IMG/VR virus record: IMGVR_UViG_3300032086_002967
Location: 1 to 43,482 of that record
DNA: 43,482 nt
DNA from: a virus
Direction: 5' to 3' (one strand)
This document shows positions 105-43,482 of the stretch, piece by piece (positions within the stretch are counted from its first letter, which is position 1; each line of letters begins with the position of its first letter). The notes beneath the pieces are model-generated. The model was not told the origin of the DNA. It ran no database searches and saw only the letters and a list, made by a program, of their open reading frames with translations. The position numbers were made by a program, and so were the translations under genes.

Positions 105-646
105 TTAACTGGGCTACCACCACCGCCACCAGCACCTAGAATTTTAGATGCATCAATACCGCCACCTAACTGCAATCTAGGGGTTGTTGAGTCGATGATT
201 TTAACACCGTCTAAACCTGCCGCTACACCTTTGGACTTGTTGTTATAGGTGTAAAAATGAACAAGCAATTCAACTTGTGCGCCAGCATATAAAATTTGGT
301 TTAACTGCATAGCGGGAATGACAGCACCGTTAGCGTCAAAAACCTGCGGTAAACCGTTATATGTTCCGGCGTTCATCACATAATAATTAGGGAACATTCC
401 GTTAAACTCAGAGGCGTCAGCAGTAGTGAGAGCGAACCGGCCACCGTTAGGTAATATGCCTTTGAACTCACCACTGTTAAGCTCGTTAGTCGCTAACTGC
501 ATTGCCTCTTGCGCCTCGGGTGCTTGTGGATGGATAACTATTTTACAAGAATGTTTTAGCTTTCCGTTATCATTAGTGTCAGGATTAGTTAAACCGTCCC
601 AAACGACGATCCCCGTGACAGTAACGTATTTATCTTCGTATATCAT
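1..646 (-). CDS. ssDNA-binding protein (DUF2815-type), 5' part, runs off window start
   Basis: Probable phage single-stranded DNA-binding protein that coats ssDNA during replication and recombination. About 181 residues precede the repeat tail; the N-terminal beta-rich domain and the later stretch LVHFYTYNNKSKGVAAGLDG match the DUF2815 (T7 gp2.5-like OB fold) pattern as I know it. A Gly-rich linker then leads into QQQIP and repeated QQQMP units that run into the window edge. The ATG at 644-646 overlaps the stop of the upstream DUF2800 nuclease as ATGA, with an AAGG Shine-Dalgarno. The rest of the gene is at 43350-43482. DUF2800, DUF2815 and a polymerase in a row is a known phage replication-module order. 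The Gln/Met/Pro tail is unusual. Confidence 0.8.
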   Translation of the reverse strand, partial: MIYEDKYVTVTGIVVWDGLTNPDTNDNGKLKHSCKIVIHPQAPEAQEAMQLATNELNSGEFKGILPNGGRFALTTADASEFNGMFPNYYVMNAGTYNGLPQVFDANGAVIPAMQLNQILYAGAQVELLVHFYTYNNKSKGVAAGLDGVKIIDSTTPRLQLGGGIDASKILGAGGGGGSPVNQQQIPQQQMPQQQMPQQQMPQQQMPQQQMPQQQM

Positions 647-1809
647 TGTGTATTACCTTTTGGTTTTGCGCTAAAAACTTTAAATGCGCGGGTTGTTTCA
701 ACGTCGACAATAATTTTTTTACCGACAGATGGTTGTGAATAAAGCTTAATAATTTCTGGCGAAATTAACTTTTTAGCTTGGTTTGGTGTTATCGGTTTAT
801 CTTTAAATAAATCGACTTTCATTAGATTAGCAAGTGCTCTAATTTCGTTTTCAGGCTTAGACCATTTTAACGATCCTCGCTTGTTATCTAACGTTAAACC
901 GTAGACCTGTTGACCGTTTTCGATCAGTGCTTCAATTTCAGATTCAACGGATGATAATTGTTTTTTAATTATATCATGCGCGCGTTTCAACTGTTCACGA
1001 TAAGGTTTTAAATTGTGTTGTTCAATATCCACAAACCCAATAGTTTCAGCGAAATCTAAACCGTTCATTGAAGCCTTAATTGCTGCCTGACAGTGAAGCA
1101 ATGCGGAGCAATCAGCGCAATGATTACCCGTTACCGCCTCGGGATTATCACCTAGAGCCTTAGCGCCTTGACTGATCAATCGTTCTAGCATTGGTATAAT
1201 TTCAACTAGTTTAACTGACCAGCAACGATCCACACCGTCAACGTGCATTGATCTAGGTTGAACTATTCTAAAATTAATTGTAACTAAATTCGGATCGAAT
1301 TTGCCGCCAGTGTAAAGATCGACTAGGCCGACAGCGTAACAAACTAGCTGTGGGTTAAATCGTGTTTCAACAGTTCGATGACCGTGTTTAAAATCCCAAA
1401 CGTCAAGCGTCAAAGTGGACTCGTCCCAAATATTAGCGTCGGGTGTACCTTCGCATTCAGTCGGGTGTACCCGTGGTATTTTAACATGCTTTTCAATGTT
1501 TAATTTTTGGAGCAAACCACGCTCGCCGCAAATCATTAAAACGCTGTTAACATAAGTGTCAGCAGAATCGGCCATTCCTTCGTCAATTACAACGCCGTTA
1601 GGCGCTGTTGATCCGATAAAGTCGAAAGGTATTTTAATACCCTGCGCTTTATTAGCTTTGAATGATTCTAAACACTCGGAGCCTACCCAGTGCGCCGCCG
1701 TGCCTTCCAACGTGTCGTCGGTGTCGGCTTGAGGGTGTCGCTCTTGAGATTGTACGCTAGCCGCACAGTAATAAAACGTATGGCTAGCGCTTGGTCTTAG
1801 TCTTGCCAT
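643..1809 (-). CDS. DUF2800 family PD-(D/E)XK nuclease (Cas4/RecB-like)
   Basis: 388 aa, probable exonuclease used in phage replication or recombination. The nuclease core is visible: P123-D124, then D139-F-K141 in VWDFKHGH, then Q154 in the following helix. Four cysteines, C15 near the N-terminus and C231, C234, C240 (CxxC-x5-C), fit the iron-sulfur cluster arrangement of Cas4/AddB-type nucleases. The start MARLRPSASHTFYYCAAS matches the typical DUF2800 N-terminus. It overlaps the upstream gene by 13 bp and the downstream SSB gene by 4 bp (ATGA), so the three are translationally coupled in a leftward operon. Its likely partner is the SSB; both families recur side by side in phage replication modules. 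Confidence 0.85.
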   Translation of the reverse strand: MARLRPSASHTFYYCAASVQSQERHPQADTDDTLEGTAAHWVGSECLESFKANKAQGIKIPFDFIGSTAPNGVVIDEGMADSADTYVNSVLMICGERGLLQKLNIEKHVKIPRVHPTECEGTPDANIWDESTLTLDVWDFKHGHRTVETRFNPQLVCYAVGLVDLYTGGKFDPNLVTINFRIVQPRSMHVDGVDRCWSVKLVEIIPMLERLISQGAKALGDNPEAVTGNHCADCSALLHCQAAIKASMNGLDFAETIGFVDIEQHNLKPYREQLKRAHDIIKKQLSSVESEIEALIENGQQVYGLTLDNKRGSLKWSKPENEIRALANLMKVDLFKDKPITPNQAKKLISPEIIKLYSQPSVGKKIIVDVETTRAFKVFSAKPKGNTQ

Positions 1810-2477
1810 AACTCATCCAAACGCTTACCGATTACCGGCACTAAATCAGGATAGCTCAAAAGAGACGTTAAACCGTTAACGTTGTTTTCAGCTAGAACAG
1901 CGTCGACAATGCTGGAAAATTCGGCTTTTTGTGCTTGTCGAGCAGTTATTGATTGTACCAACGATGCGAAATCCAAAGGCTCGTCATTAGTGGGCGTAGG
2001 CTCAGGTTGAGCGGTGCTATTACCTAAAACCTGACTAGCTATGTTTGATTGCGTGGTGACTGGTGCAGCTTCGCCGTTAGCGCCTATTTCAAACTCAAGC
2101 GCGCCTTCCGGTGCCACACCGTTAGCAGCGTCGGCAGCGGCTTGCATCGCCTGTTGCTCTTGCTTTACTTGCTCAATTAATTCCGGCGTCGCCTTACCTT
2201 TTAGACGATAAGAGCCGTCTTTTAGAATAGCGCGACTTGCTACGTGGATTCGATCATCCCATCGTAAGCCTTTAGTGTCGATGTGGTCTAAAGGTAACTC
2301 GTCGTTATCGCTAGTAGTTTCTTTTTTAACGCTAGCGGCGGGTTTTGTTTCTTCAACCGTTGATTTAATTCCCAGCGTTTCACCGGTTAGGTCGTTAGCT
2401 AATCCCATCAACATATCGGAAGCCCGTTGTAAGGCTTCTTTATTGTCTAGGGGTAAGGTTATACTTATGTTACTCAT
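1797..2477 (-). CDS. hypothetical phage protein with GLRWDDRIHVASR motif
   Basis: 226 aa, first gene of the leftward replication operon. The ATG at 2477 is chosen because AGGTGA lies 8 nt upstream; an in-frame ATG 12 codons earlier lacks a site and would lie inside the -10 region. A GLRWDDRIHVASR motif followed by a KDGSYRLKGKATPE stretch occurs in the middle; I recognise similar WD(E/A)RIH motifs in unnamed proteins of many phage replication modules. Flanks are Ala/Glu/Pro-rich and probably disordered, and a short helical C-terminus (about 40 residues) ends in LWQD. No enzymatic motif is visible. Its position suggests a role in replication or recombination, perhaps an SSB or nuclease accessory, but this is inference. 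Confidence 0.75.
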   Translation of the reverse strand: MSNISITLPLDNKEALQRASDMLMGLANDLTGETLGIKSTVEETKPAASVKKETTSDNDELPLDHIDTKGLRWDDRIHVASRAILKDGSYRLKGKATPELIEQVKQEQQAMQAAADAANGVAPEGALEFEIGANGEAAPVTTQSNIASQVLGNSTAQPEPTPTNDEPLDFASLVQSITARQAQKAEFSSIVDAVLAENNVNGLTSLLSYPDLVPVIGKRLDELWQD

Positions 2478-2514: not shown

Positions 2515-2542
2515 ATAATAACACTATTGACAAAGTTGTCAA
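2515..2542 (-). promoter_or_regulatory. leftward early promoter
   Basis: On the minus strand: -35 TTGACA (2542-2537), 16-bp spacer, -10 TATTAT (2520-2515). It faces the 2477-40509 leftward operon. Its -35 hexamer is one arm of the operator palindrome at 2527-2542. Confidence 0.7.
2527..2542. promoter_or_regulatory. palindromic operator between divergent early operons
   Basis: TTGACAAAGTTGTCAA, two 7-bp inverted arms around 2 bp. Each arm supplies the -35 hexamer of one of the two divergent promoters, so one bound dimer could cover both. A second copy with the same outer arms lies at 6175-6190. Confidence 0.7.
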
Positions 2543-2555
2543 CAAGAAATATTAT
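2527..2555 (+). promoter_or_regulatory. rightward early promoter
   Basis: -35 TTGACA (2527-2532), 17-bp spacer, -10 TATTAT (2550-2555), upstream of the helicase gene. Near-consensus sigma70 promoter sharing its operator with the leftward promoter. Confidence 0.75.
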
Positions 2556-2593: not shown

Positions 2594-4222
2594 ATGCAGT
2601 TAAGGGATTACCAACTAGCCAGCGAATACGATATTAATAAAGCTTGGCAAGCCGTTAAAAATGTATTACTAGTATCGCCAACCGGTAGCGGTAAAACCGT
2701 TCTAATGGGTAAGGTGGTTAATGATCACATTGGTAAAGTTTGCGCTATCGCTCATCGTAACGAGTTAGTCGGTCAAATATCATTATCGCTAGCAAAATTC
2801 GGCGTTGAGCATAACATAATAGCTAACAATACAACGATTGCCGAAATAATCAAAACCCACATTGAGGAAACCGGACGAAAATTTTATAACCCTGTTGCAA
2901 AATGCGCTGTTGCGTCGGTTAAAACATTACTGTCACGACAAGCAAGTTTAAAATCATGGTGCGAGCAAGTAACTTTATGGGTTACGGACGAGGCGCATCA
3001 TATTGTTGACGGTAACGAATGGGGTAGAGCGTGCGATCTTTTCCCTAACGCTAAAGGTTTAGGCGTTACAGCAACGCCGTTACGGGCTGACGGTCTTGGT
3101 TTAGGTCGTCATCACGACGGATTGTTTGACCAAATGGTTGTCAGTGCCACAATGAGAGAGTTGATCAACCGTGGCTATTTAACTGATTATAGAATTTTTG
3201 CGCCGCCGTCAGATCTTAATATGGAAGGCGTCAAGATTACCGGCAAGGGTGAGTTTAGTCCAAAAGAAACAAAAGAGCGTTTCAAGCGTTCAAAAATTCT
3301 AGGCGACGTAGTTAGTCACTACTTAAGAATAGCGCCTAATAAATTAGGGATCACTTTCGCTGTCGATATAGAAACAGCAAAAGAACTGACTCAAAAATAT
3401 AATGACGCTGGCGTTCCGGCCAAGTTAGTTACCGGTGACACGTCAATTACTGAACGTGCTAAAATATTAAGGCAATTTAGAAACAGAGAAATATTACAGC
3501 TAGTTAACGTTGATCTGTTTGGCGAGGGTTTTGATTTACCAGCGCTAGAGGTTGTTAGCTTTGCTCGACCAACACAAAGTTACGGGCTTTACGTTCAACA
3601 GTTCGGTCGAGTTTTGAGATTGATGGACGGTAAAGAGTACGGGATCATCATCGATCATGTTGGTAACGTTGACCGTCACGGGTTGCCAGATAAGGAAAGA
3701 GTGTGGACACTTGATCGACGCGAAAAGTCAAAACGCAACAAGCACGACCCCGATTTAATACCGCTTAAAACTTGCTCGGGTTGTACGGGTAAATATGAGG
3801 CTTTTTACATTGCTTGTCCTTATTGCGGTGAAGTTAACAAACCGCAAAGCAGAGCGACACCCGAGCAAGTCGACGGTGATTTGCAAGAACTTGACCCCGA
3901 AGTATTAAAGGCAATGCGCGGCGAAATCGCTAAAATAGACGGTGCGCCTAAAATGCCACGGGGTTTAAATGGTAACGCGCAAGTTGGTGTTTTAAACAAA
4001 CACGCAAAAAAACAAGAAACGCAAAAAAAACTTCGTGAACTAATAAGATGGGTCGGCGGTTATCACTCATCACAGGGTTACACCAAATCACAAAGCCACA
4101 AGTTTTTTTATTGGCGTTTTCAGATTGACGTTTTAAGCGCTCAAGCGTTGGCTGAAAAGGACGCTATAATTTTAATAGAAAAAATAGAAAGTTTTTTAAG
4201 AGATAAAGAGGTTTATTTATGA
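2594..4222 (+). CDS. SF2 DEAD/DEAH-box helicase with C-terminal zinc ribbon
   Basis: 542 aa ATP-dependent DNA helicase or translocase, first gene of the rightward early operon. Visible motifs: N-terminal Q-motif-like MQLRDYQ, Walker A SPTGSGKT (about residues 28-35), DEAH (about 131-134), motif III ATPLRAD, and helicase C motifs ending with QFGRVLRLMDG. A CxxC...CPYC pair at about 394-412 is a probable zinc ribbon, usual in this phage helicase family. The C-terminal part is basic and helical. The Shine-Dalgarno is weak (AAAGG about 13 nt upstream), but MQLRDYQ is the family start. It overlaps the next gene by 4 bp. Likely role: replication fork or origin remodelling with the PrimPol-SF3 protein; the exact role is inferred. 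Confidence 0.9.
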   Translation: MQLRDYQLASEYDINKAWQAVKNVLLVSPTGSGKTVLMGKVVNDHIGKVCAIAHRNELVGQISLSLAKFGVEHNIIANNTTIAEIIKTHIEETGRKFYNPVAKCAVASVKTLLSRQASLKSWCEQVTLWVTDEAHHIVDGNEWGRACDLFPNAKGLGVTATPLRADGLGLGRHHDGLFDQMVVSATMRELINRGYLTDYRIFAPPSDLNMEGVKITGKGEFSPKETKERFKRSKILGDVVSHYLRIAPNKLGITFAVDIETAKELTQKYNDAGVPAKLVTGDTSITERAKILRQFRNREILQLVNVDLFGEGFDLPALEVVSFARPTQSYGLYVQQFGRVLRLMDGKEYGIIIDHVGNVDRHGLPDKERVWTLDRREKSKRNKHDPDLIPLKTCSGCTGKYEAFYIACPYCGEVNKPQSRATPEQVDGDLQELDPEVLKAMRGEIAKIDGAPKMPRGLNGNAQVGVLNKHAKKQETQKKLRELIRWVGGYHSSQGYTKSQSHKFFYWRFQIDVLSAQALAEKDAIILIEKIESFLRDKEVYL

Positions 4223-5282: not shown

Positions 5283-5508
5283 ACTAACTTATAGAATTAG
5301 AAAATATTATGGTTTACTGCATTGCGTTACTGACGAGGAAATAGAAAGATGTTTATATGACTCGCACGGTGCTAGTGTGTGTCGTTTGAATTTAGCTTTA
5401 GAAAAACTGTCGAAAGAAATAAAAAAAATAGCAATCATCGATGCCTGTCGTTTCAAACTAGCTTTAGAAAAACTGTCGAAAGAAGCAAAAAAGGTATTAG
5501 GTCAATGA
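5275..5508 (+). CDS. hypothetical protein with internal 66-bp duplication
   Basis: 77 aa, not recognised. ATG at 5275 overlaps the VRR-NUC stop, and the TGA overlaps the methyltransferase start (ATGA). The C-terminal half holds two copies of the helix RFKLALEKLSKE at a 22-residue spacing, from a 66-bp direct duplication (5380 and 5446) with a 26-bp identical core. The second copy lies directly over the upstream region of the methyltransferase. Confidence 0.6.
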   Translation: MNKLTYRIRKYYGLLHCVTDEEIERCLYDSHGASVCRLNLALEKLSKEIKKIAIIDACRFKLALEKLSKEAKKVLGQ

Positions 5509-6206
5509 TTGAACAAAACGACGCAATAACATTTTTAAAATCGCTAGGTAAAAACAGCGTTGATTTGATAGTTACCGATCCGCCTTATGATATTAAAAAC
5601 ACTCGAGCAGGTAACAGCTTTTTACAAGATGGGTTAAATAAAAGCCAATCAGATCTAACTGATTTAAATATCGACAAATGCGCCGGTTTAGATTGGTGTC
5701 AAGAAATACCTAGAATTCAAGGCGGCAAAATTAATTGCTATATCTGGTGTAACAAAGCGCAAATATCAATGTATTTAAATTATTTTGTCGGTCAATTAAA
5801 ATGCTCGTTTGATATTATCGTGTGGTATAAACCAAACACCCCGCCGACGTACCATAACAAATGGATGAGTGATAAAGAGTATTGCCTGTATTTTAGAAAG
5901 TCGGGTTACTGTATGCCTAAAACGCACTCAGATGCTTGCACTTTGTTTAAGCATCCTATGAATGTGAAAGATAAAAAAATATATGGTCACCCGACCGTTA
6001 AACCGCTCGAAATAATCAGAAGGTTGATCCGAAATAGTAGCCGAAAAAAACAAACCGTGATTGATCCGTTTGTCGGCTCAGGAACAACAGCAGTTGCCGC
6101 GCTAATGGAAGGTCGAAAGTTTAAATGCTGTGATCTCGACCGTCATTTTGTGGCTGTGGCTCAAGCTAGAGTTATTGACACCATTGTCAACAAGGGGTTA
6201 GAATGA
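5505..6206 (+). CDS. DNA N6-adenine/N4-cytosine methyltransferase
   Basis: 233 aa site-specific DNA methyltransferase of the N6_N4_Mtase family. Motif IV DPPYD at residues 25-29 comes before motif I DPFVGSGTT at about 187-195, the beta-class order. The segment PTVKPLEIIRRLIR ahead of motif I is typical. I take ATG 5505 (ATGA overlap with the upstream stop) because the motif IV region starts soon after; an in-frame upstream extension reads the antisense-like frame of the repeat gene. No restriction endonuclease is adjacent, so it is probably an orphan enzyme that protects phage DNA or modifies host DNA. Its last codons hold a promoter and operator for the next gene. Confidence 0.88.
   Translation: MIEQNDAITFLKSLGKNSVDLIVTDPPYDIKNTRAGNSFLQDGLNKSQSDLTDLNIDKCAGLDWCQEIPRIQGGKINCYIWCNKAQISMYLNYFVGQLKCSFDIIVWYKPNTPPTYHNKWMSDKEYCLYFRKSGYCMPKTHSDACTLFKHPMNVKDKKIYGHPTVKPLEIIRRLIRNSSRKKQTVIDPFVGSGTTAVAALMEGRKFKCCDLDRHFVAVAQARVIDTIVNKGLE
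6175..6204 (+). promoter_or_regulatory. promoter with second operator copy, before TetR-like gene
   Basis: -35 TTGACA (6175-6180), 18-bp spacer, -10 TAGAAT (6199-6204), inside the 3' end of the methyltransferase gene. The palindrome TTGACACCATTGTCAA (6175-6190) has the same outer 6-bp arms as the operator at 2527-2542, and both are followed by CAAG. It is well placed for autoregulation of the DNA-binding protein at 6241. Confidence 0.65.
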
Positions 6207-6240
6207 AACAAATAATAACAGTACAATTGAGTATTAATTA

Positions 6241-6549
6241 ATGAAACCTAGAAGAATGAAGCCTAGCGCGAGGAAAACGCAATTGTTAGACGCGGCAGTA
6301 CAAGCCGCTGGAAAGTACGGTTTTCATCAATTCAACCGCGATCACATTGCCGAGTTTAGCGGAACAAGCCCGACGCTAATAACCGTTTATTTTAAAAGTG
6401 TTAACAAACTTAAAAACGCAATCATGCGAGAAGCGTTGAGACGTGAGCATTTGAAGATCATAGCCGAGGGTATAGTGACCGGTGATCCCATCGCTAAAAA
6501 AGCGGATCGAGTTCTAAAGAAAAAAGCATTAGAATCAATAGGCGTTTAA
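6241..6549 (+). CDS. short TetR-like helix-turn-helix DNA-binding protein
   Basis: 102 aa. Residues about 10-60 (ARKTQLLDAAVQAAGKYGF, then IAEFSGTSPTLITVYFKSVNKL) match the N-terminal three-helix HTH of TetR-family regulators, including the recognition-helix pattern ending YF. The large TetR ligand/dimer domain is missing; only about 40 helical residues follow, so dimerisation must differ. The start 6241 lacks a clear Shine-Dalgarno; ATG 6256 is an alternative. A promoter with a palindromic operator lies 50 bp upstream and a matching operator controls both early operons, so I infer a phage regulator acting at both sites. It precedes the PrimPol gene by 1 bp. Confidence 0.75.
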   Translation: MKPRRMKPSARKTQLLDAAVQAAGKYGFHQFNRDHIAEFSGTSPTLITVYFKSVNKLKNAIMREALRREHLKIIAEGIVTGDPIAKKADRVLKKKALESIGV

Positions 6550-6550
6550 C

Positions 6551-8974
6551 ATGAATCAAATACCAACGGCTTTGATGCCGCTTGCAAACTATAACCAGTT
6601 TGTAATTTGGCAGGCAGTACCTAATAAAAAAAACCCGAACAAATTTGATAAAATAACATTAGACCCGAACACTTTATACGCACATAACGCGCATGACCCT
6701 AAAATATGGTTTAGCGCGGCTGACGCTTTAGCAATTGCTAATAACCTTGGCCGAACTTTTGGTGTCGGCTTTGTGTTTACCAATAACGATCCGTTTTGGT
6801 TTTTTGATATTGATAATTGCACCAACGACGATGGAAGCTGGACAAATGACGCTCAATCCTTCGTTAATTATTTTACCGGTTGCGCCGTGGAAATTAGCCA
6901 TAGTGGAAAAGGGTTGCATATTTTCGGTACAGGCACAGGCTACCACGCTGATCACCGTAAAAAAAATATACCATTAGGGTTAGAGTTTTACACGAGTGAT
7001 CGCTTTGTTGCGTTAACCGGTGTCGGCGCTATGGGTGATGCCAGCTTTGACGCTAGCCACTTATTACCGTCATTTGTCAATTACTATTTCCCGCCTAAAA
7101 CAATCGACAACACGCTAGAATGGACAACGGAACCAGTACCCGAGAGTAAACCGCTAAAAACCGATAAAGCTTTGATCAAAAGAATGAAAGAATCAACCAG
7201 CGCCGCTCAAGTGTTTGGTACTAAAGTTAGCGCCGCCGATTTATGGGATTGTAACGTTGAAAAATTAGGTGTGGCTTTTCCACCAACTAATATCGAAGAT
7301 GGTTTTGATCGATCCAGCGCGGATCAAGCTTTATGTAATCACCTAGCGTTTTGGACGGGTAAAGATTGCGAACGTATCGAGCGATTAATGAGTCAATCCG
7401 GCCTTGTGCGTGACAAATGGGAAAACCGCAAGGATTATAGACGCGACACCATATTAAACGCTGTGCGCGGCTGTCGTGACGTCTACGGGTCACAAATAGC
7501 CGCTAAAGAGGCAGCAAGGCAAGAGTGGAAGCCAGAGCAACACATAGTTCACGACACCACTGTCAAAGCTAATGGTGGATCGAGAATGCTTGCTTACGAG
7601 GAACGGCCTAATTTTTTTGCAGGTCATTACTTTATGACATGTAACAGTAAGGTTTTTTGTCCTGACGGCGTTGTCAGGGGTCAAACCGAATATAATAACA
7701 TGTATTCAACTGTTGAATTTTTAGAGGCGTTCGGCGGCAAGCCAATAAAAGAAGCTTGGAAAGCTTACGTAACAGCGCCAGATATGACGCGCGCGGAAGT
7801 TTACGACAGGGCTTATCGACCTGAATATGAGTTCGGCACAGTGTTCGAGGATAGCGGCCGTAGCTATGTTAATGAATATGTCAATCAAGACGGCTTGCGG
7901 GTCGAGGGCGATGCTAGCCCGTTTTACAATCACATAAAAATTATGTTACCTAACGACCAAGACGCTGAAATACTAATTAGCTGGATGGCGGCGTTTGTTC
8001 AGTATTCCGGTAAAAAGTTTCTGTGGTCGCCGTTCATCCAAGGTGTTGAGGGTAACGGTAAAAGTTTAATTGCTAGAGTGCTGACCTATTGTATTGGTGA
8101 TGATCACGTTGAAGATGTTGATCCCGAGGATTTTTGTAATAGCGGCGGTAAATTTAACAGTTACATTAAAAATCACCGGCTAGCTGTATTAGAGGAAATT
8201 AAAACCGGATCAAGAAACCAAGCAGAGGCAGCGTTGAAACGTTTCATTGGTAATTCAAGAATACAAACCCAAGCAAAAGGTGTTGATCAGTTAACGATTA
8301 AAACGTGCATTAATTGGCTACTAATGAGCAATTACAAGGACGCTGTGAAAGTTACTGATCATACTCGCCGGTTTGCCATTTTGTTTTGCGCACAACAAGA
8401 AACCGAGGATCTAGCGTTAAACGATATGCAAAGAGGCGGTAAGTATTTTAGCAACTTGTTTGACTGGTTTTACAATCAAGACGGATGGGCTAAGACCGCA
8501 CATTTTTTAGACACCTACAAAATACCCGATGAATTTAACCCTGCAACGCTCGCCGATAAAGCCCCTATAACGAGCAGTTTCTTAGAAGCTATCAACGAAT
8601 CCAAAAGCGCACCACATCAAGCCGTCAGCGAGGCTATCACCAGCGGCAAAGCAGGTACTTTGAAAAGCTGGTTATCGGTTCAAGCTCTCAGAACAATATT
8701 ACAAAACGAATACGGCATTAAACCGCCTAGCGGTAAGATGCTGGCTATTTATTTAAAACAAGAGGGTTACGTTAAGCATCCGGCGCTAACAAACCAAGGG
8801 CGAGCTACTAGGGCTATCATGCAGGAAAGCAACAACCGCTCAGTACTCTATGTCAAATCGGGCAGTATTCAATCTCAAATAGCAGATGCAACACAAGCCA
8901 CCAATCAATATATGCGTGATCAAGGTTATGAGGCTGAAAATAATTATCAGCAAGGGGTTGCACAATTAAAATAG
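6551..8974 (+). CDS. primase-polymerase fused to SF3-type helicase (DUF5906-like)
   Basis: 807 aa replication initiator-like enzyme. N-terminal AEP primase-polymerase: motif I FFDID (84-88), motif II SHSGKGLHI (116-124), motif III EFYTSDRFVALTG (145-157). C-terminal helicase: Walker A in GVEGNGKS (about 497-505), Walker B LAVLEEI (about 544-550), and a downstream MSNYKD sensor segment, as in phage D5/VirE-like DUF5906 helicases. The fusion supplies priming and unwinding in one polypeptide and is well known in phages and mobile elements. A roughly 150-residue C-terminal tail is probably a winged-helix or partner-binding region. It is the last gene of the early operon; a promoter for the next block lies in its final codons. 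Confidence 0.92.
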   Translation: MNQIPTALMPLANYNQFVIWQAVPNKKNPNKFDKITLDPNTLYAHNAHDPKIWFSAADALAIANNLGRTFGVGFVFTNNDPFWFFDIDNCTNDDGSWTNDAQSFVNYFTGCAVEISHSGKGLHIFGTGTGYHADHRKKNIPLGLEFYTSDRFVALTGVGAMGDASFDASHLLPSFVNYYFPPKTIDNTLEWTTEPVPESKPLKTDKALIKRMKESTSAAQVFGTKVSAADLWDCNVEKLGVAFPPTNIEDGFDRSSADQALCNHLAFWTGKDCERIERLMSQSGLVRDKWENRKDYRRDTILNAVRGCRDVYGSQIAAKEAARQEWKPEQHIVHDTTVKANGGSRMLAYEERPNFFAGHYFMTCNSKVFCPDGVVRGQTEYNNMYSTVEFLEAFGGKPIKEAWKAYVTAPDMTRAEVYDRAYRPEYEFGTVFEDSGRSYVNEYVNQDGLRVEGDASPFYNHIKIMLPNDQDAEILISWMAAFVQYSGKKFLWSPFIQGVEGNGKSLIARVLTYCIGDDHVEDVDPEDFCNSGGKFNSYIKNHRLAVLEEIKTGSRNQAEAALKRFIGNSRIQTQAKGVDQLTIKTCINWLLMSNYKDAVKVTDHTRRFAILFCAQQETEDLALNDMQRGGKYFSNLFDWFYNQDGWAKTAHFLDTYKIPDEFNPATLADKAPITSSFLEAINESKSAPHQAVSEAITSGKAGTLKSWLSVQALRTILQNEYGIKPPSGKMLAIYLKQEGYVKHPALTNQGRATRAIMQESNNRSVLYVKSGSIQSQIADATQATNQYMRDQGYEAENNYQQGVAQLK

Positions 8975-9193: not shown

Positions 9194-9413
9194 TCGCCAA
9201 CATCACCAAAATTTTATAATTGCCGGTTATCTCAATGAGGAATGCGAATTTCAAAAAGAATTGTTTTTATCGGGAATATCTTTAAAAAAAGCGCGCAATT
9301 CATTTAACCAAGGCGCAAAACTTAGAAGGTCAATATTAAATGACACCAAGCGAACAAGCGATCAGCATGGGGCTAGAATCACTCGCCCAAGTAACGCGAC
9401 TAACGGGCGTTAG
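9183..9413 (+). CDS. hypothetical protein
   Basis: 76 aa, not recognised. The ATG follows AGGCGG, and the start overlaps the previous gene by 11 bp. The first 50 residues (HQNFIIAGYLNEECEFQKELFLSGISLKKARNSF) look like an ordinary helical protein; the last 25 residues run over the next gene in another frame and have a biased composition. The long 74-bp overlap lowers my confidence in the C-terminal part. Confidence 0.5.
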   Translation: MINSRQHHQNFIIAGYLNEECEFQKELFLSGISLKKARNSFNQGAKLRRSILNDTKRTSDQHGARITRPSNATNGR

Positions 9414-9534
9414 TCAGCAAACACTTATTAATTGGCACAAAAACAAACCAAAGCTTTTTAAAATTGTTTTGTGTGGATGTCAGAGGAATATTAGAAATGC
9501 TAGAAATGCGAAAATTAAAAGGGAGCGGCAATAA
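9340..9534 (+). CDS. small helix-turn-helix protein
   Basis: 64 aa. Residues about 15-38 (LAQVTRLTGVSQQTLINWHK, then PKLFKIVLCGC) form a clear helix-turn-helix of the kind found in short phage proteins that read LTGVS-x2-TL-x2-W-x-KNKP-x-LF. Start supported by GAAGG 10 nt upstream. Probably binds DNA, as a Cro- or AlpA-like regulator or transposase-type HTH. It overlaps the flanking genes in other frames. Confidence 0.7.
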   Translation: MTPSEQAISMGLESLAQVTRLTGVSQQTLINWHKNKPKLFKIVLCGCQRNIRNARNAKIKRERQ

Positions 9535-24703: not shown

Positions 24704-25017
24704 TTACAAGCCGAATGAAGCTACCACATAAAATGACTTATTGGTTGCCTACAGCTAATAATGGTACAGGCGGTAAAACTTGGGCTAGTCCGGTAACGGT
24801 TGACGCTAGGGTTGCTGACGTTGATAAAATAGTCAACACACCGGAAGGAAAGCAGCACCACGCGACGAAAGTATTTTATTCTAAAACCACATTACCTTTA
24901 GGCGCTTATGTAGTGCAGGGTGAAACAACAGCATCGACACCGAGTAGCGAGGCGAAAGAAGTTAGGATGTCGAACCTTAATAGCTCAATGACTGATCTTA
25001 AATTAGCGACCGTTTAA
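24700..25017 (+). CDS. head closure protein (probable)
   Basis: 105 aa, start 24700 in an ATGA overlap with the previous stop. Pattern MKLPHKMTYWLPTANNGTGGKTW, then strands, then RVADVDKIVNTPEGKQHHATKVFY matches beta-barrel head-closure (stopper) proteins. Assignment mainly by order in the operon. Confidence 0.6.
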   Translation: MITSRMKLPHKMTYWLPTANNGTGGKTWASPVTVDARVADVDKIVNTPEGKQHHATKVFYSKTTLPLGAYVVQGETTASTPSSEAKEVRMSNLNSSMTDLKLATV

Positions 25018-36847: not shown

Positions 36848-37691
36848 ATATATAACGATTTTATTATTGTTTCCGTTGTCAGTGCTTGCGGCTGACGTAT
36901 CTGAGTATCAACCGGTTGGCGAAATGCAGAATCTAGCAGGTTATACCGATTTGTCGGGCGGCGCTTATAGTCCTATTTACGGCGCGACATACGTTGACAA
37001 CAAAAGCGGAATGGTTAGCTTTAGCGATAGTCCAACGCAATGCGCTAGTGGAGGCGATTTAGAGGCGGTTGAATATTTAGACGACCACAGGGTTTACACA
37101 GTCAACGAGGCTAAAAACGGGGTGTCTGTGATTAACGTTAGTAATTGCAGCGTAGAACGTCGATTTTTTGTCAATATCCCCAAAACTGGCAGTGACGGCA
37201 TCGAAGGTTTAACCGTTCACAACGGGATTGTTTATGTTTTAGATGAAAGATCATCAAGCATTTACTCGTTTGTCGACACTGGCGGTAATAGAAACACCAT
37301 AACGCCTGATTTTTTATTTTCGGTAAGCGGATGCACTAACGGCGGTGACTTAGCAATGAACGGTGACAATATTGTAATAGTGTGCGAATCGTCACCCAAT
37401 ATAGTTGAATATGATTTGTTTGGTAATTGGGTTGCGTCTAACAATCTAGTTACTTTTATCAACACCGAGGTTATTTATTTTAACGACAATCAAATGTGCG
37501 CGGGTGGTGAGCCGGATCAATTACAATGCTTTGAGTCATCAAACACACCACCACCACCGCCACCGGTTGACGAATTTGAAACTTGCACCTATTCCGGTGA
37601 AGTTGTCGTTAATGTGGAAACCGGCGCTTTTGATCCTCAAACCGTAGTTTTTAATTGCCCTACCATTACAGCGAGTGGAACGCTTAACTAA
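36840..37691 (+). CDS. secreted beta-propeller-like protein (SdiA-regulated/YjiK-like)
   Basis: 283 aa with a signal peptide (MIKYITILLLFPLSVLAADV). Repeats with GDLEAVEYLDDHRVYTVNEA, GIEGLTVHNGIVYVLDERSS and GGDLAMNGDNIVIVCESS are blade-like and match the SdiA-regulated pattern. A proline run (PPPPPP) then leads to a short Cys-containing C-terminal beta segment. Encoding a secreted protein between spanins and fibre is unusual. It could be a periplasmic or surface factor; no function is known. Ends as TAATG with the fibre gene. Confidence 0.65.
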   Translation: MIKYITILLLFPLSVLAADVSEYQPVGEMQNLAGYTDLSGGAYSPIYGATYVDNKSGMVSFSDSPTQCASGGDLEAVEYLDDHRVYTVNEAKNGVSVINVSNCSVERRFFVNIPKTGSDGIEGLTVHNGIVYVLDERSSSIYSFVDTGGNRNTITPDFLFSVSGCTNGGDLAMNGDNIVIVCESSPNIVEYDLFGNWVASNNLVTFINTEVIYFNDNQMCAGGEPDQLQCFESSNTPPPPPPVDEFETCTYSGEVVVNVETGAFDPQTVVFNCPTITASGTLN

Positions 37692-39568
37692 TGTCTGTAG
37701 CGTACGACAATCATGTTAATTCCACAGGGTTTGGTGGCAATGTGACAATGAACATAACACCCGTCGCTGATCCATCGGGTGTTTGGGCTGGTGTTGCACA
37801 AGGTACTAACGATAATGACACTATAACCGGCGTGACTTATGGCGGTGTCGCTATGACCCGCGTTGCTCGATTTGTTGGAACCGGCGCAGAGCATACCGTA
37901 CATTATTTATATTTTTTAGGGTCAGGGATTCCGACCGGAAATCAAGATTGTGTAATTTCGGTCAGTTCTAATACAGGTAAACACTGCATTGTAATGACGT
38001 TAACGGCCTCGGCTGATACAGAAATTAACGTAACTGAGGAATTAATAGATTCTAGCAGTGAAACAAACCCGAGAGCAGTATTCGCAATCGGCGGCGTTGA
38101 ATCGTTTGTAGGTGAGATACTAACAAGTGGTTATTCACAAGTCACCAACATAAGCCCGATAGTACCAAACTGGTCAGACCGTGGTGAGGGTGACATGGGC
38201 GCTTTAGTCTCGGCTTTTTATACTTATGACATTGTTGGTACTGCCGATGTTACCTGTGGTTATGATAATACTGGCGGCGCGGAAGATGCACAGCTTTTTG
38301 CTTTTGCCATAAGCGAGGTAGCAGGCGGCGCAACCGTTACACCTGACGAAGTTAATCAGTCGCAAAGCGTTGATAGTCCGACGTTGACTCAAGACCACGC
38401 GCTGACACCCGACGAGGTTAACCAGTCGCAGACGATTGATAGTCCGACGATCAGTAGCGGTGTCTCTTTAAGTGTGGATAGTGTCAGCCAGTCACAGAGC
38501 ATCGATAGTCCGACGCTGACCCAAGAGCACGCGCTGACACCTGACGAAGTTAATCAGTCACAGACGATCGATAGTCCGACGCTGACCCAAGAGCACACGC
38601 TGACACCTGACGAAGTTAATCAGTCACAGACGATTGATAGTCCGACATTAACCCAAGACCACGTACTAACGCCTGACGAAGTTAATCAGTCACAGACGAT
38701 TGATAGTCCGACGTTGACCCAAGACCACGCGCTGACACCTGACGAAGTTAATCAGTCACAGACGATTGATAGTCCAGTACTAACGGCTGACGGTGCACTA
38801 ACGCCTGACGAGGTTAATCAGTCACAGAGCGTTGACAGTCCGACGTTGACCCAAGACCACGTACTAACGCCTGACGAGGTTAATCAGTCGCAGAGCGTTG
38901 AAAGTCCGAAGATGACCCAAGAGCACGCACTGACACCTGACGAGGTTAATCAGTCGCAGAGCGTTGATAGTCCGGTGCTTTCAATACAGGGTGTTTTAAC
39001 AGCGTTGAACGTCAACCAATTACAGAACATTGATAGCCCGACGTTAACCCAAGACCACGTATTAACGCCTGACGAAGTTAATCAGTCACAGACGATTGAT
39101 AGTCCGGCACTGTCTATTGCTTATGCGCTCATAACGGCAAATTTGAGCCAGTCACAGAGCATCGATAGCCCGACTATAACCGCCGACGGGTCTTTACTGC
39201 CCGACGAGGTTAACCAGTCGCAAAGCGTTGATAGTCCGACGCTGACCCAAGACCACGTATTAACGCCCGACGAGGTTAACCAATCGCAGACGATTGATAG
39301 TCCGGTGATTGTGGATAACGGGATCGCGTTATTGGTTGATGATTTGAACCAGCTACAAATATTAGATGCCACAACGTTAAATCAGATCAACGTTTTGCAA
39401 CCGGACAACATAACACAACAGCAAATTTTAGACGTGTCAAGGCTTGGCGGGGTGGTTATTGGTTATTATAACGCCGAAATTAGCATATTGACGGCGTATA
39501 ATGGTAATATTAAAATAGAAAACGCTCTGACGGGTGAAATCAAAGTGATCAACGCTCTAAATATATAG
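37691..39568 (+). CDS. repeat-rich fibre-like protein
   Basis: 625 aa. Residues 1-215 are a beta-sandwich head (SVAYDNHVNSTGFGGNVTMN, TLTASADTEINVT, FAFAISEV) of a type seen in phage tail proteins. From about 216 to 585 there are 17 units of 22 residues with consensus LTPDEVNQSQTIDSP-x-LTQ-x-H-x; the last units diverge. Residues 590-625 form a short beta tail (YYNAEISILTAYNGNIKIE). Probable extended stalk or adhesin on the virion. Repeat number is likely variable. Confidence 0.75.
   Translation: MSVAYDNHVNSTGFGGNVTMNITPVADPSGVWAGVAQGTNDNDTITGVTYGGVAMTRVARFVGTGAEHTVHYLYFLGSGIPTGNQDCVISVSSNTGKHCIVMTLTASADTEINVTEELIDSSSETNPRAVFAIGGVESFVGEILTSGYSQVTNISPIVPNWSDRGEGDMGALVSAFYTYDIVGTADVTCGYDNTGGAEDAQLFAFAISEVAGGATVTPDEVNQSQSVDSPTLTQDHALTPDEVNQSQTIDSPTISSGVSLSVDSVSQSQSIDSPTLTQEHALTPDEVNQSQTIDSPTLTQEHTLTPDEVNQSQTIDSPTLTQDHVLTPDEVNQSQTIDSPTLTQDHALTPDEVNQSQTIDSPVLTADGALTPDEVNQSQSVDSPTLTQDHVLTPDEVNQSQSVESPKMTQEHALTPDEVNQSQSVDSPVLSIQGVLTALNVNQLQNIDSPTLTQDHVLTPDEVNQSQTIDSPALSIAYALITANLSQSQSIDSPTITADGSLLPDEVNQSQSVDSPTLTQDHVLTPDEVNQSQTIDSPVIVDNGIALLVDDLNQLQILDATTLNQINVLQPDNITQQQILDVSRLGGVVIGYYNAEISILTAYNGNIKIENALTGEIKVINALNI
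38338..39455 (+). repeat. 66-bp coding repeat, about 17 units
   Basis: Period 66 bp (22 residues), several central units nearly identical at DNA level. A direct-repeat recombination hotspot inside the fibre gene. Confidence 0.9.
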
Positions 39569-43349: not shown

Positions 43350-43482
43350 TTAAGGGTTTAAATAGTCTTGACCTGCCTGTTGCGGCATTTGCTGTTGCGG
43401 CATTTGCTGTTGCGGCATTTGCTGTTGCGGCATTTGCTGTTGCGGCATTTGCTGTTGCGGCATTTGCTGTTGCGGCATTTGC
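43350..43482 (-). CDS. ssDNA-binding protein, C-terminal part
   Basis: Last about 44 codons of the SSB gene: six QQQMP units, then QQAGQDYLNP and TAA at 43350. The start is at 646 on the other side of the contig junction. The tail lacks the acidic tip of classical SSBs and T7 gp2.5. Confidence 0.8.
   Translation of the reverse strand, partial: QMPQQQMPQQQMPQQQMPQQQMPQQQMPQQQMPQQAGQDYLNP
43385..43482. repeat. 15-bp tandem repeat encoding QQQMP, window end
   Basis: Six full units and 8 bases of a seventh, identical to the array at the window start. Joining the ends in phase needs an overlap of 8 plus a multiple of 15 bp. Confidence 0.95.

Follow-up and report, generated by a model that had tools for sequence, protein, structure and literature searches.

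A ligand-free TetR-type protein as putative autoregulated repressor of early promoters in a widespread family of phages

What might a phage do with a TetR-like protein of only 102 amino acids, whose gene is preceded by a perfect palindrome that recurs at a single other place in the genome? The question is raised by IMG/VR record IMGVR_UViG_3300032086_002967, positions 1 to 43,482 of which form the window, i.e. the whole 43.5-kb stretch of DNA analyzed here. A sequence-only reading had proposed that the protein is a phage-specific autoregulated repressor or timing switch of a minimal TetR form. We find that the arrangement is real and conserved and that the best explanation is a TetR-type repressor, ligand-free and autoregulated, that acts on early promoters of the phage. 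That the protein represses early promoters independently of ligand, with a Cro-like feedback on its own synthesis, is in our judgment quite likely.

The dyad TTGACA-N4-TGTCAA has exactly two copies in the whole genome, at 2527-2542 (TTGACAAAGTTGTCAA; predicted operator O1) and at 6175-6190 (TTGACACCATTGTCAA; predicted operator O2). Both are followed directly on the 3' side by CAAG, as had been noted, so that TTGACA-N4-TGTCAA-CAAG also occurs twice; no dyad appeared in 100 shuffles of the genome, i.e. zero copies are expected. O1 lies between divergent exonuclease and helicase operons. Beyond what had been noted, its two arms form the -35 boxes of a rightward helicase-operon promoter (2527..2555, plus strand; TTGACA-17-TATTAT) and a leftward exonuclease/annealing-operon promoter (2515..2542, minus strand; TTGACA-16-TATTAT). 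O2 supplies the -35 box of the promoter of the gene for the short protein (6175..6204, plus strand; TTGACA-18-TAGAAT), which by position also serves the primase-polymerase gene. Each promoter has 11 of the 12 consensus bases, and the three (plus 2527, minus 2542 and plus 6175) ranked at the top of a consensus scan for sigma-70 promoters in the first 9.1 kb; the same rule applied to the whole window returned no further 11/12 promoter.

The rightward operon begins with a DEAD/ResIII helicase gene (2594..4222, plus strand). The leftward operon has as its first gene a PHROG 11133 member of unknown function (1797..2477, minus strand) and includes the DUF2800 exonuclease gene (643..1809, minus strand); helicase and exonuclease are both predicted to be under O1 control. 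O2 overlaps the last 32 nt of an ORF (5505..6206, plus strand) assigned by Pfam to a DNA methyltransferase (N6_N4_Mtase) and is therefore not intergenic. The ATG of the short protein, hereafter mini-TetR, stands at 6241, 50 bp past O2, which agrees with the distance reported earlier. Its gene (6241..6549, plus strand) is followed, 1 nt past the stop codon, by an NrS-1-like primase-polymerase/helicase gene (DUF5906; 6551..8974, plus strand). A search for further sites in this genome and its relatives had been suggested. Relatives supplied such sites, as described below; within the window, one-mismatch dyads at 24821, 30666, 31112 and 32445 all lie inside structural genes and were set aside as probably due to chance. 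With only two copies present, an unbiased dyad scan of this window alone did not single out the TTGAC dyad, and hence the case rests on exact matching, the promoters and the relatives.

The only Pfam domain of mini-TetR is TetR_N (PF00440), at residues 15-53 and 24.2 bits (cut-off 24); the homologues from JD001 and SppYZU01 reach 29.1 and 43.9 bits. Residues 1-100 match PHROG 8723, a family of unknown function, with 94.4 bits (E 1.7e-26). An AlphaFold2 monomer model based on 51 relatives (pLDDT 94.8, pTM 0.84) has the helices of the helix-turn-helix (HTH) at 8-26, 33-40 and 44-51; past the HTH and helix 4 it contains only helices 71-80 and 90-101, whose fold matches, to helices further along in complete TetR proteins, are too weak to interpret. 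Model and Pfam thus agree with the earlier description of a TetR HTH without a ligand domain: the C-terminal ligand-binding and dimerization domain of the TetR family, whose full-length members have ~190-220 aa, is absent. A small-molecule ligand is consequently not expected to release the protein from DNA. Homologues in the alignments have similar lengths, tandem forms excepted. A palindromic operator-like dyad at the protein's own promoter, which is a trait of the TetR family, is present by sequence as O2 and as its equivalents in relatives.

Several PHROG 8723 members have been named "TetR family transcriptional regulator" in phage genomes (JD001 gp45, CP-T1 gp14, SppYZU01_43), and these share family, size and genomic position with mini-TetR. 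Genes of the family are annotated by name only or as unknown, and the literature searched gave no operator, regulon or function for it. Comeau et al. 2012 (PMC3391216) only noted tetR-like genes in phiPLPE, CP-T1 and 138 and guessed at co-option. When related viral contigs were fetched with the helicase profile, 72 of the 80 carried a mini-tetR homologue on the same strand downstream of the helicase gene. The minimal TetR form with a dyad on its own promoter therefore stands, and the notion that it is specific to this phage does not. In isolated phages the gene likewise lies 3' of the helicase gene and often just 5' of the primase-polymerase gene, and the hosts include Acinetobacter, Pantoea, Edwardsiella, Klebsiella, Pectobacterium, Shewanella, Vibrio and Aeromonas, among others. 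Scans of viral contigs with the Scuro and 97.13 proteins gave no matches. Vibrio phage 1.022.O showed neither a homologue match nor an exact dyad; Sinorhizobium phage Susan was dropped as a gene-less control because a weak 80-aa homologue is present. JD001 gp48 (L014, 5885-8581), annotated as terminase large subunit, matches the helicase, and its product name is therefore likely wrong.

In part of the family the dyad has been kept together with the gene. It occurs upstream of tetR, exact or with one mismatch, in Scuro, AAM22, MSW-3, PVN06, PEi21, JD001, BUCT_49532, PEAT2, LAPP1, KsaM-C1 and CP-T1, and these phages also have it, exact or with one to two mismatches, in the exonuclease/helicase divergent region. 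The O1 position is matched in Scuro, AAM22, MSW-3/PVN06, Jedunavirus and CP-T1, and in annotated relatives equivalents of O2 precede tetR by 42-61 bp. Both positions are retained among phages whose proteins share 30-40% identity and whose upstream genes differ. Whole genomes of relatives contain up to nine exact copies; in annotated genomes most dyads lie close to a gene start (typically 50-60 bp upstream of it), and the genes concerned include some that run against late operons. Over 99 distinct sites the consensus is TRTTGACR-N4-YGTCAAYA. In the divergent regions of L023-L025, two overlapping promoters seem to stand face to face (TTGAC-N~30-GTCAA), as opposed to back-to-back in the window.

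Strong TTGACA -35 boxes could in principle generate such dyads as a by-product, at divergent promoters or by chance, with nothing bound to them; the left arm is, after all, a consensus -35 box. We regard this as hardly credible. A -35 box accounts for one arm only, and the arms of Klebsiella phages are mostly TTGACG, off the -35 consensus. In the 72 tetR-bearing contigs TTGAC-N6-GTCAA has 61-63 exact copies, whereas 59 permuted arms average 1.0 copies, with none approaching the observed count, and spacings other than N6 yield 0-5. On these arm-permutation and spacing controls, chance or a pure -35 origin was rejected. When all 5-bp dyads were scanned without bias, the top rank in JD001, PEAT2, AAM22, Scuro and MSW-3, and the second rank in CP-T1, went to the TTGAC dyad or to a form of it shifted to TGAC. 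Exact dyads have a density of 1.0/kb within 150 bp upstream of tetR (~30-fold) and 0.35/kb within 500 bp upstream of the helicase gene (~10-fold), compared with 0.035/kb elsewhere. A -10 hexamer is found 16-18 bp from a dyad arm at 64 of 87 sites versus 10% of random positions.

The reader of these dyads might instead be a TetR protein of the host, for instance RutR, through which the phage would sense pyrimidine status, the phage protein being something else or a competitor. RutR of E. coli is the nearest solved sequence relative of the mini-TetR HTH (38% over 58 aa), and between rutA and rutR E. coli K-12 has TGGACTAAACGGTCAA (TGGAC-N6-GTCAA), which differs from TTGAC-N6-GTCAA by one mismatch. 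RutR, however, has 212 aa and a ligand domain where mini-TetR has 102 aa and none, and mini-TetR scores just 30.4 of 230 bits and 29 of 368 bits at the RutR family cut-offs and falls far short of that for BetI. The eight contigs lacking tetR (104 kb; some are short and may be truncated) contain no exact dyad, compared with ~5 expected in proportion. In phages that infect several different host genera, dyads precede the phage gene itself, and the distribution of RutR across Proteobacteria is mosaic (PMC5343134). Dyad presence also follows the recognition helix of the phage protein, and altogether we judge a host reader very improbable.

A search for covariation of operator and recognition helix had been suggested, and covariation was found as a small effect. 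In a set of 75 proteins sharing less than 80% identity, the distance between recognition helices predicts dyad presence when corrected for the rest of the protein (Mantel partial r 0.05, p 0.006), while the rest of the protein, corrected for the helix, does not (p 0.46). Small as the effect is, it suggests that the dyad is read by the phage protein. Relatives that have the protein and lack the operators, which would weigh against the sequence-only reading, do exist, as about half of the mini-TetR family is without the TTGAC dyad; the distant Scuro, AAM22, MSW-3, PVN06, JD001, PEAT2, KsaM-C1 and CP-T1 nevertheless keep it. A substitute motif was found in one dyad-less clade only: CKB-S1, VP16C and 1.009.O (L020, L019 and L026) have copies of YTAGATTAG at the same two promoters, as direct repeats at 11 bp in the divergent region and as a single copy overlapping the -10 at the tetR promoter. 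In SFCi1 and 97.13, palindromes over the -10 were spotted by eye. The tetR site of Klebsiella phages is asymmetric (TTGACC..CGTCAA) and most of their other sites are TTGACG..CGTCAA, which, speculatively, would fit weaker autorepression.

We infer binding, dimerization, repression and timing as follows. Upon phage entry, host RNA polymerase would fire from the near-consensus promoters and mini-TetR would accumulate. A dimer, formed without the classical TetR dimerization domain, would then bind the 16-bp dyads TTGACR-N4-YGTCAA, the arms of which are -35 boxes of early sigma-70 promoters. With O1 occupied, host RNA polymerase would be kept from both divergent replication promoters, and with O2 occupied, from the protein's own promoter and that of the downstream primase-polymerase. 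Negative feedback would in this way turn the early promoters down to a set level. Since the predicted sites cover the strongest early promoters, including its own, mini-TetR is probably a self-limiting brake on early expression, and the "timing switch" proposed earlier would be one way to describe it. The same may hold for other members of PHROG 8723, a phage TetR-like family to which the papers searched assign no function.

Lambda Cro is a small DNA-binding protein of an early operon that acts at divergent early promoters and also regulates its own synthesis. Mini-TetR would resemble it only in manner of working, its repression being a prediction: its TetR HTH belongs to a fold family unrelated to the HTH_3 of Cro, and there is neither a CI partner nor an operator array here.

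The overlap of dyads with -35 boxes fits repression best and is compatible with other outcomes. Mini-TetR could, for example, be an activator or dual regulator, perhaps of late or middle promoters, activation being something that TetR proteins of the LuxR/HapR type are capable of. By profile and fold its HTH is near those of the quorum regulators HapR, SmcR and LuxR, and some dyads in MSW-3 and CP-T1 are 9-18 bp from late gene starts. Those regulators, in contrast to mini-TetR, are full-length TetR host proteins with a regulatory domain and large regulons. Occupancy of arms that are -35 boxes would block RNA polymerase, and promoters so near to consensus should need no activator; we thus consider activation quite improbable.

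Repression could alternatively serve immunity or lysogeny maintenance, mini-TetR being the CI of these phages in an unrecognized temperate or pseudolysogenic state. The predicted operators do cover early promoters in both directions, as CI would need, and putative integrases are annotated in the homologue-bearing phages VP16C and PY6, as is one recombinase in PD0307. CP-T1, which has a tetR-like gene, was described as temperate without known lysogeny genes (PMC3391216), and an immunity role is conceivable for that reason. In this genome, by contrast, neither Pfam Phage_integrase nor HTH_3 was detected, which agrees with the statement that the phage is without CI and integrase. Phage 138, a sister phage whose protein is identical, was described as lytic (PMC3391216), and tetR lies in the replication region, apparently co-transcribed with the primase gene, a placement that would suit an early gene of lytic growth. 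On balance we think an immunity repressor unlikely, and favor the early brake.

A broader reading is possible, and we offer it tentatively. In a large group of dwarf phages, most of which look virulent, the ligand-free TetR half-protein may be the master repressor of early genes and possibly the one that confers immunity, with operator specificity diverging between clades via the recognition helix and, in one branch, two HTH modules fused into a single-chain pseudo-dimer. Immunity or timing groups defined by this family would then be new for phages without CI. The branch in question comprises tandem forms of about 166-180 aa with two TetR-like HTH modules, in ~16 contigs (L003, L011, L075, L077-L083, L088, L091, L118, L124, L136 and L140). 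Their extra N-terminal module, GIPDGSFPHIMGCNF, is highly conserved (GIPDGSF..MGCNF) and was modeled as a separate HTH on a flexible linker (pLDDT 85.6, pTM 0.59); such proteins could be single-chain pseudo-dimers.

No description of early-gene control in Jedunavirus, Yokohamavirus, CP-T1 and relatives was found in the literature searched, and some phages of these types have been studied for phage therapy. A named regulator, an operator consensus and predicted targets in each phage are now available, which makes the early switch testable at once. The arrangement suggests that a TetR module can serve as a pure timing device without ligand, and the family offers natural recognition-helix/operator pairs for studies of DNA specificity.

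Other features of the window were also recorded. A 64-aa ORF at 9340-9534, after the primase gene, has an HTH-like stretch, VTRLTGVSQQTLINWH, with a weak MerR match, and is possibly a second small regulator. A 625-aa ORF near the tail region (37691-39568) contains ~12 units of a 66-bp tandem repeat (TPDEVNQSQ..DSPTLTQ) at 38339-39304 and possibly encodes a length-variable fiber or adhesin. Both window ends, 1-103 and 43377-43482, carry the same 15-bp tandem repeat, GCATTTGCTGTTGCG; the genome is probably circular or permuted and was opened, in this record, within a repeat that belongs to the C-terminus of a leftward early gene.
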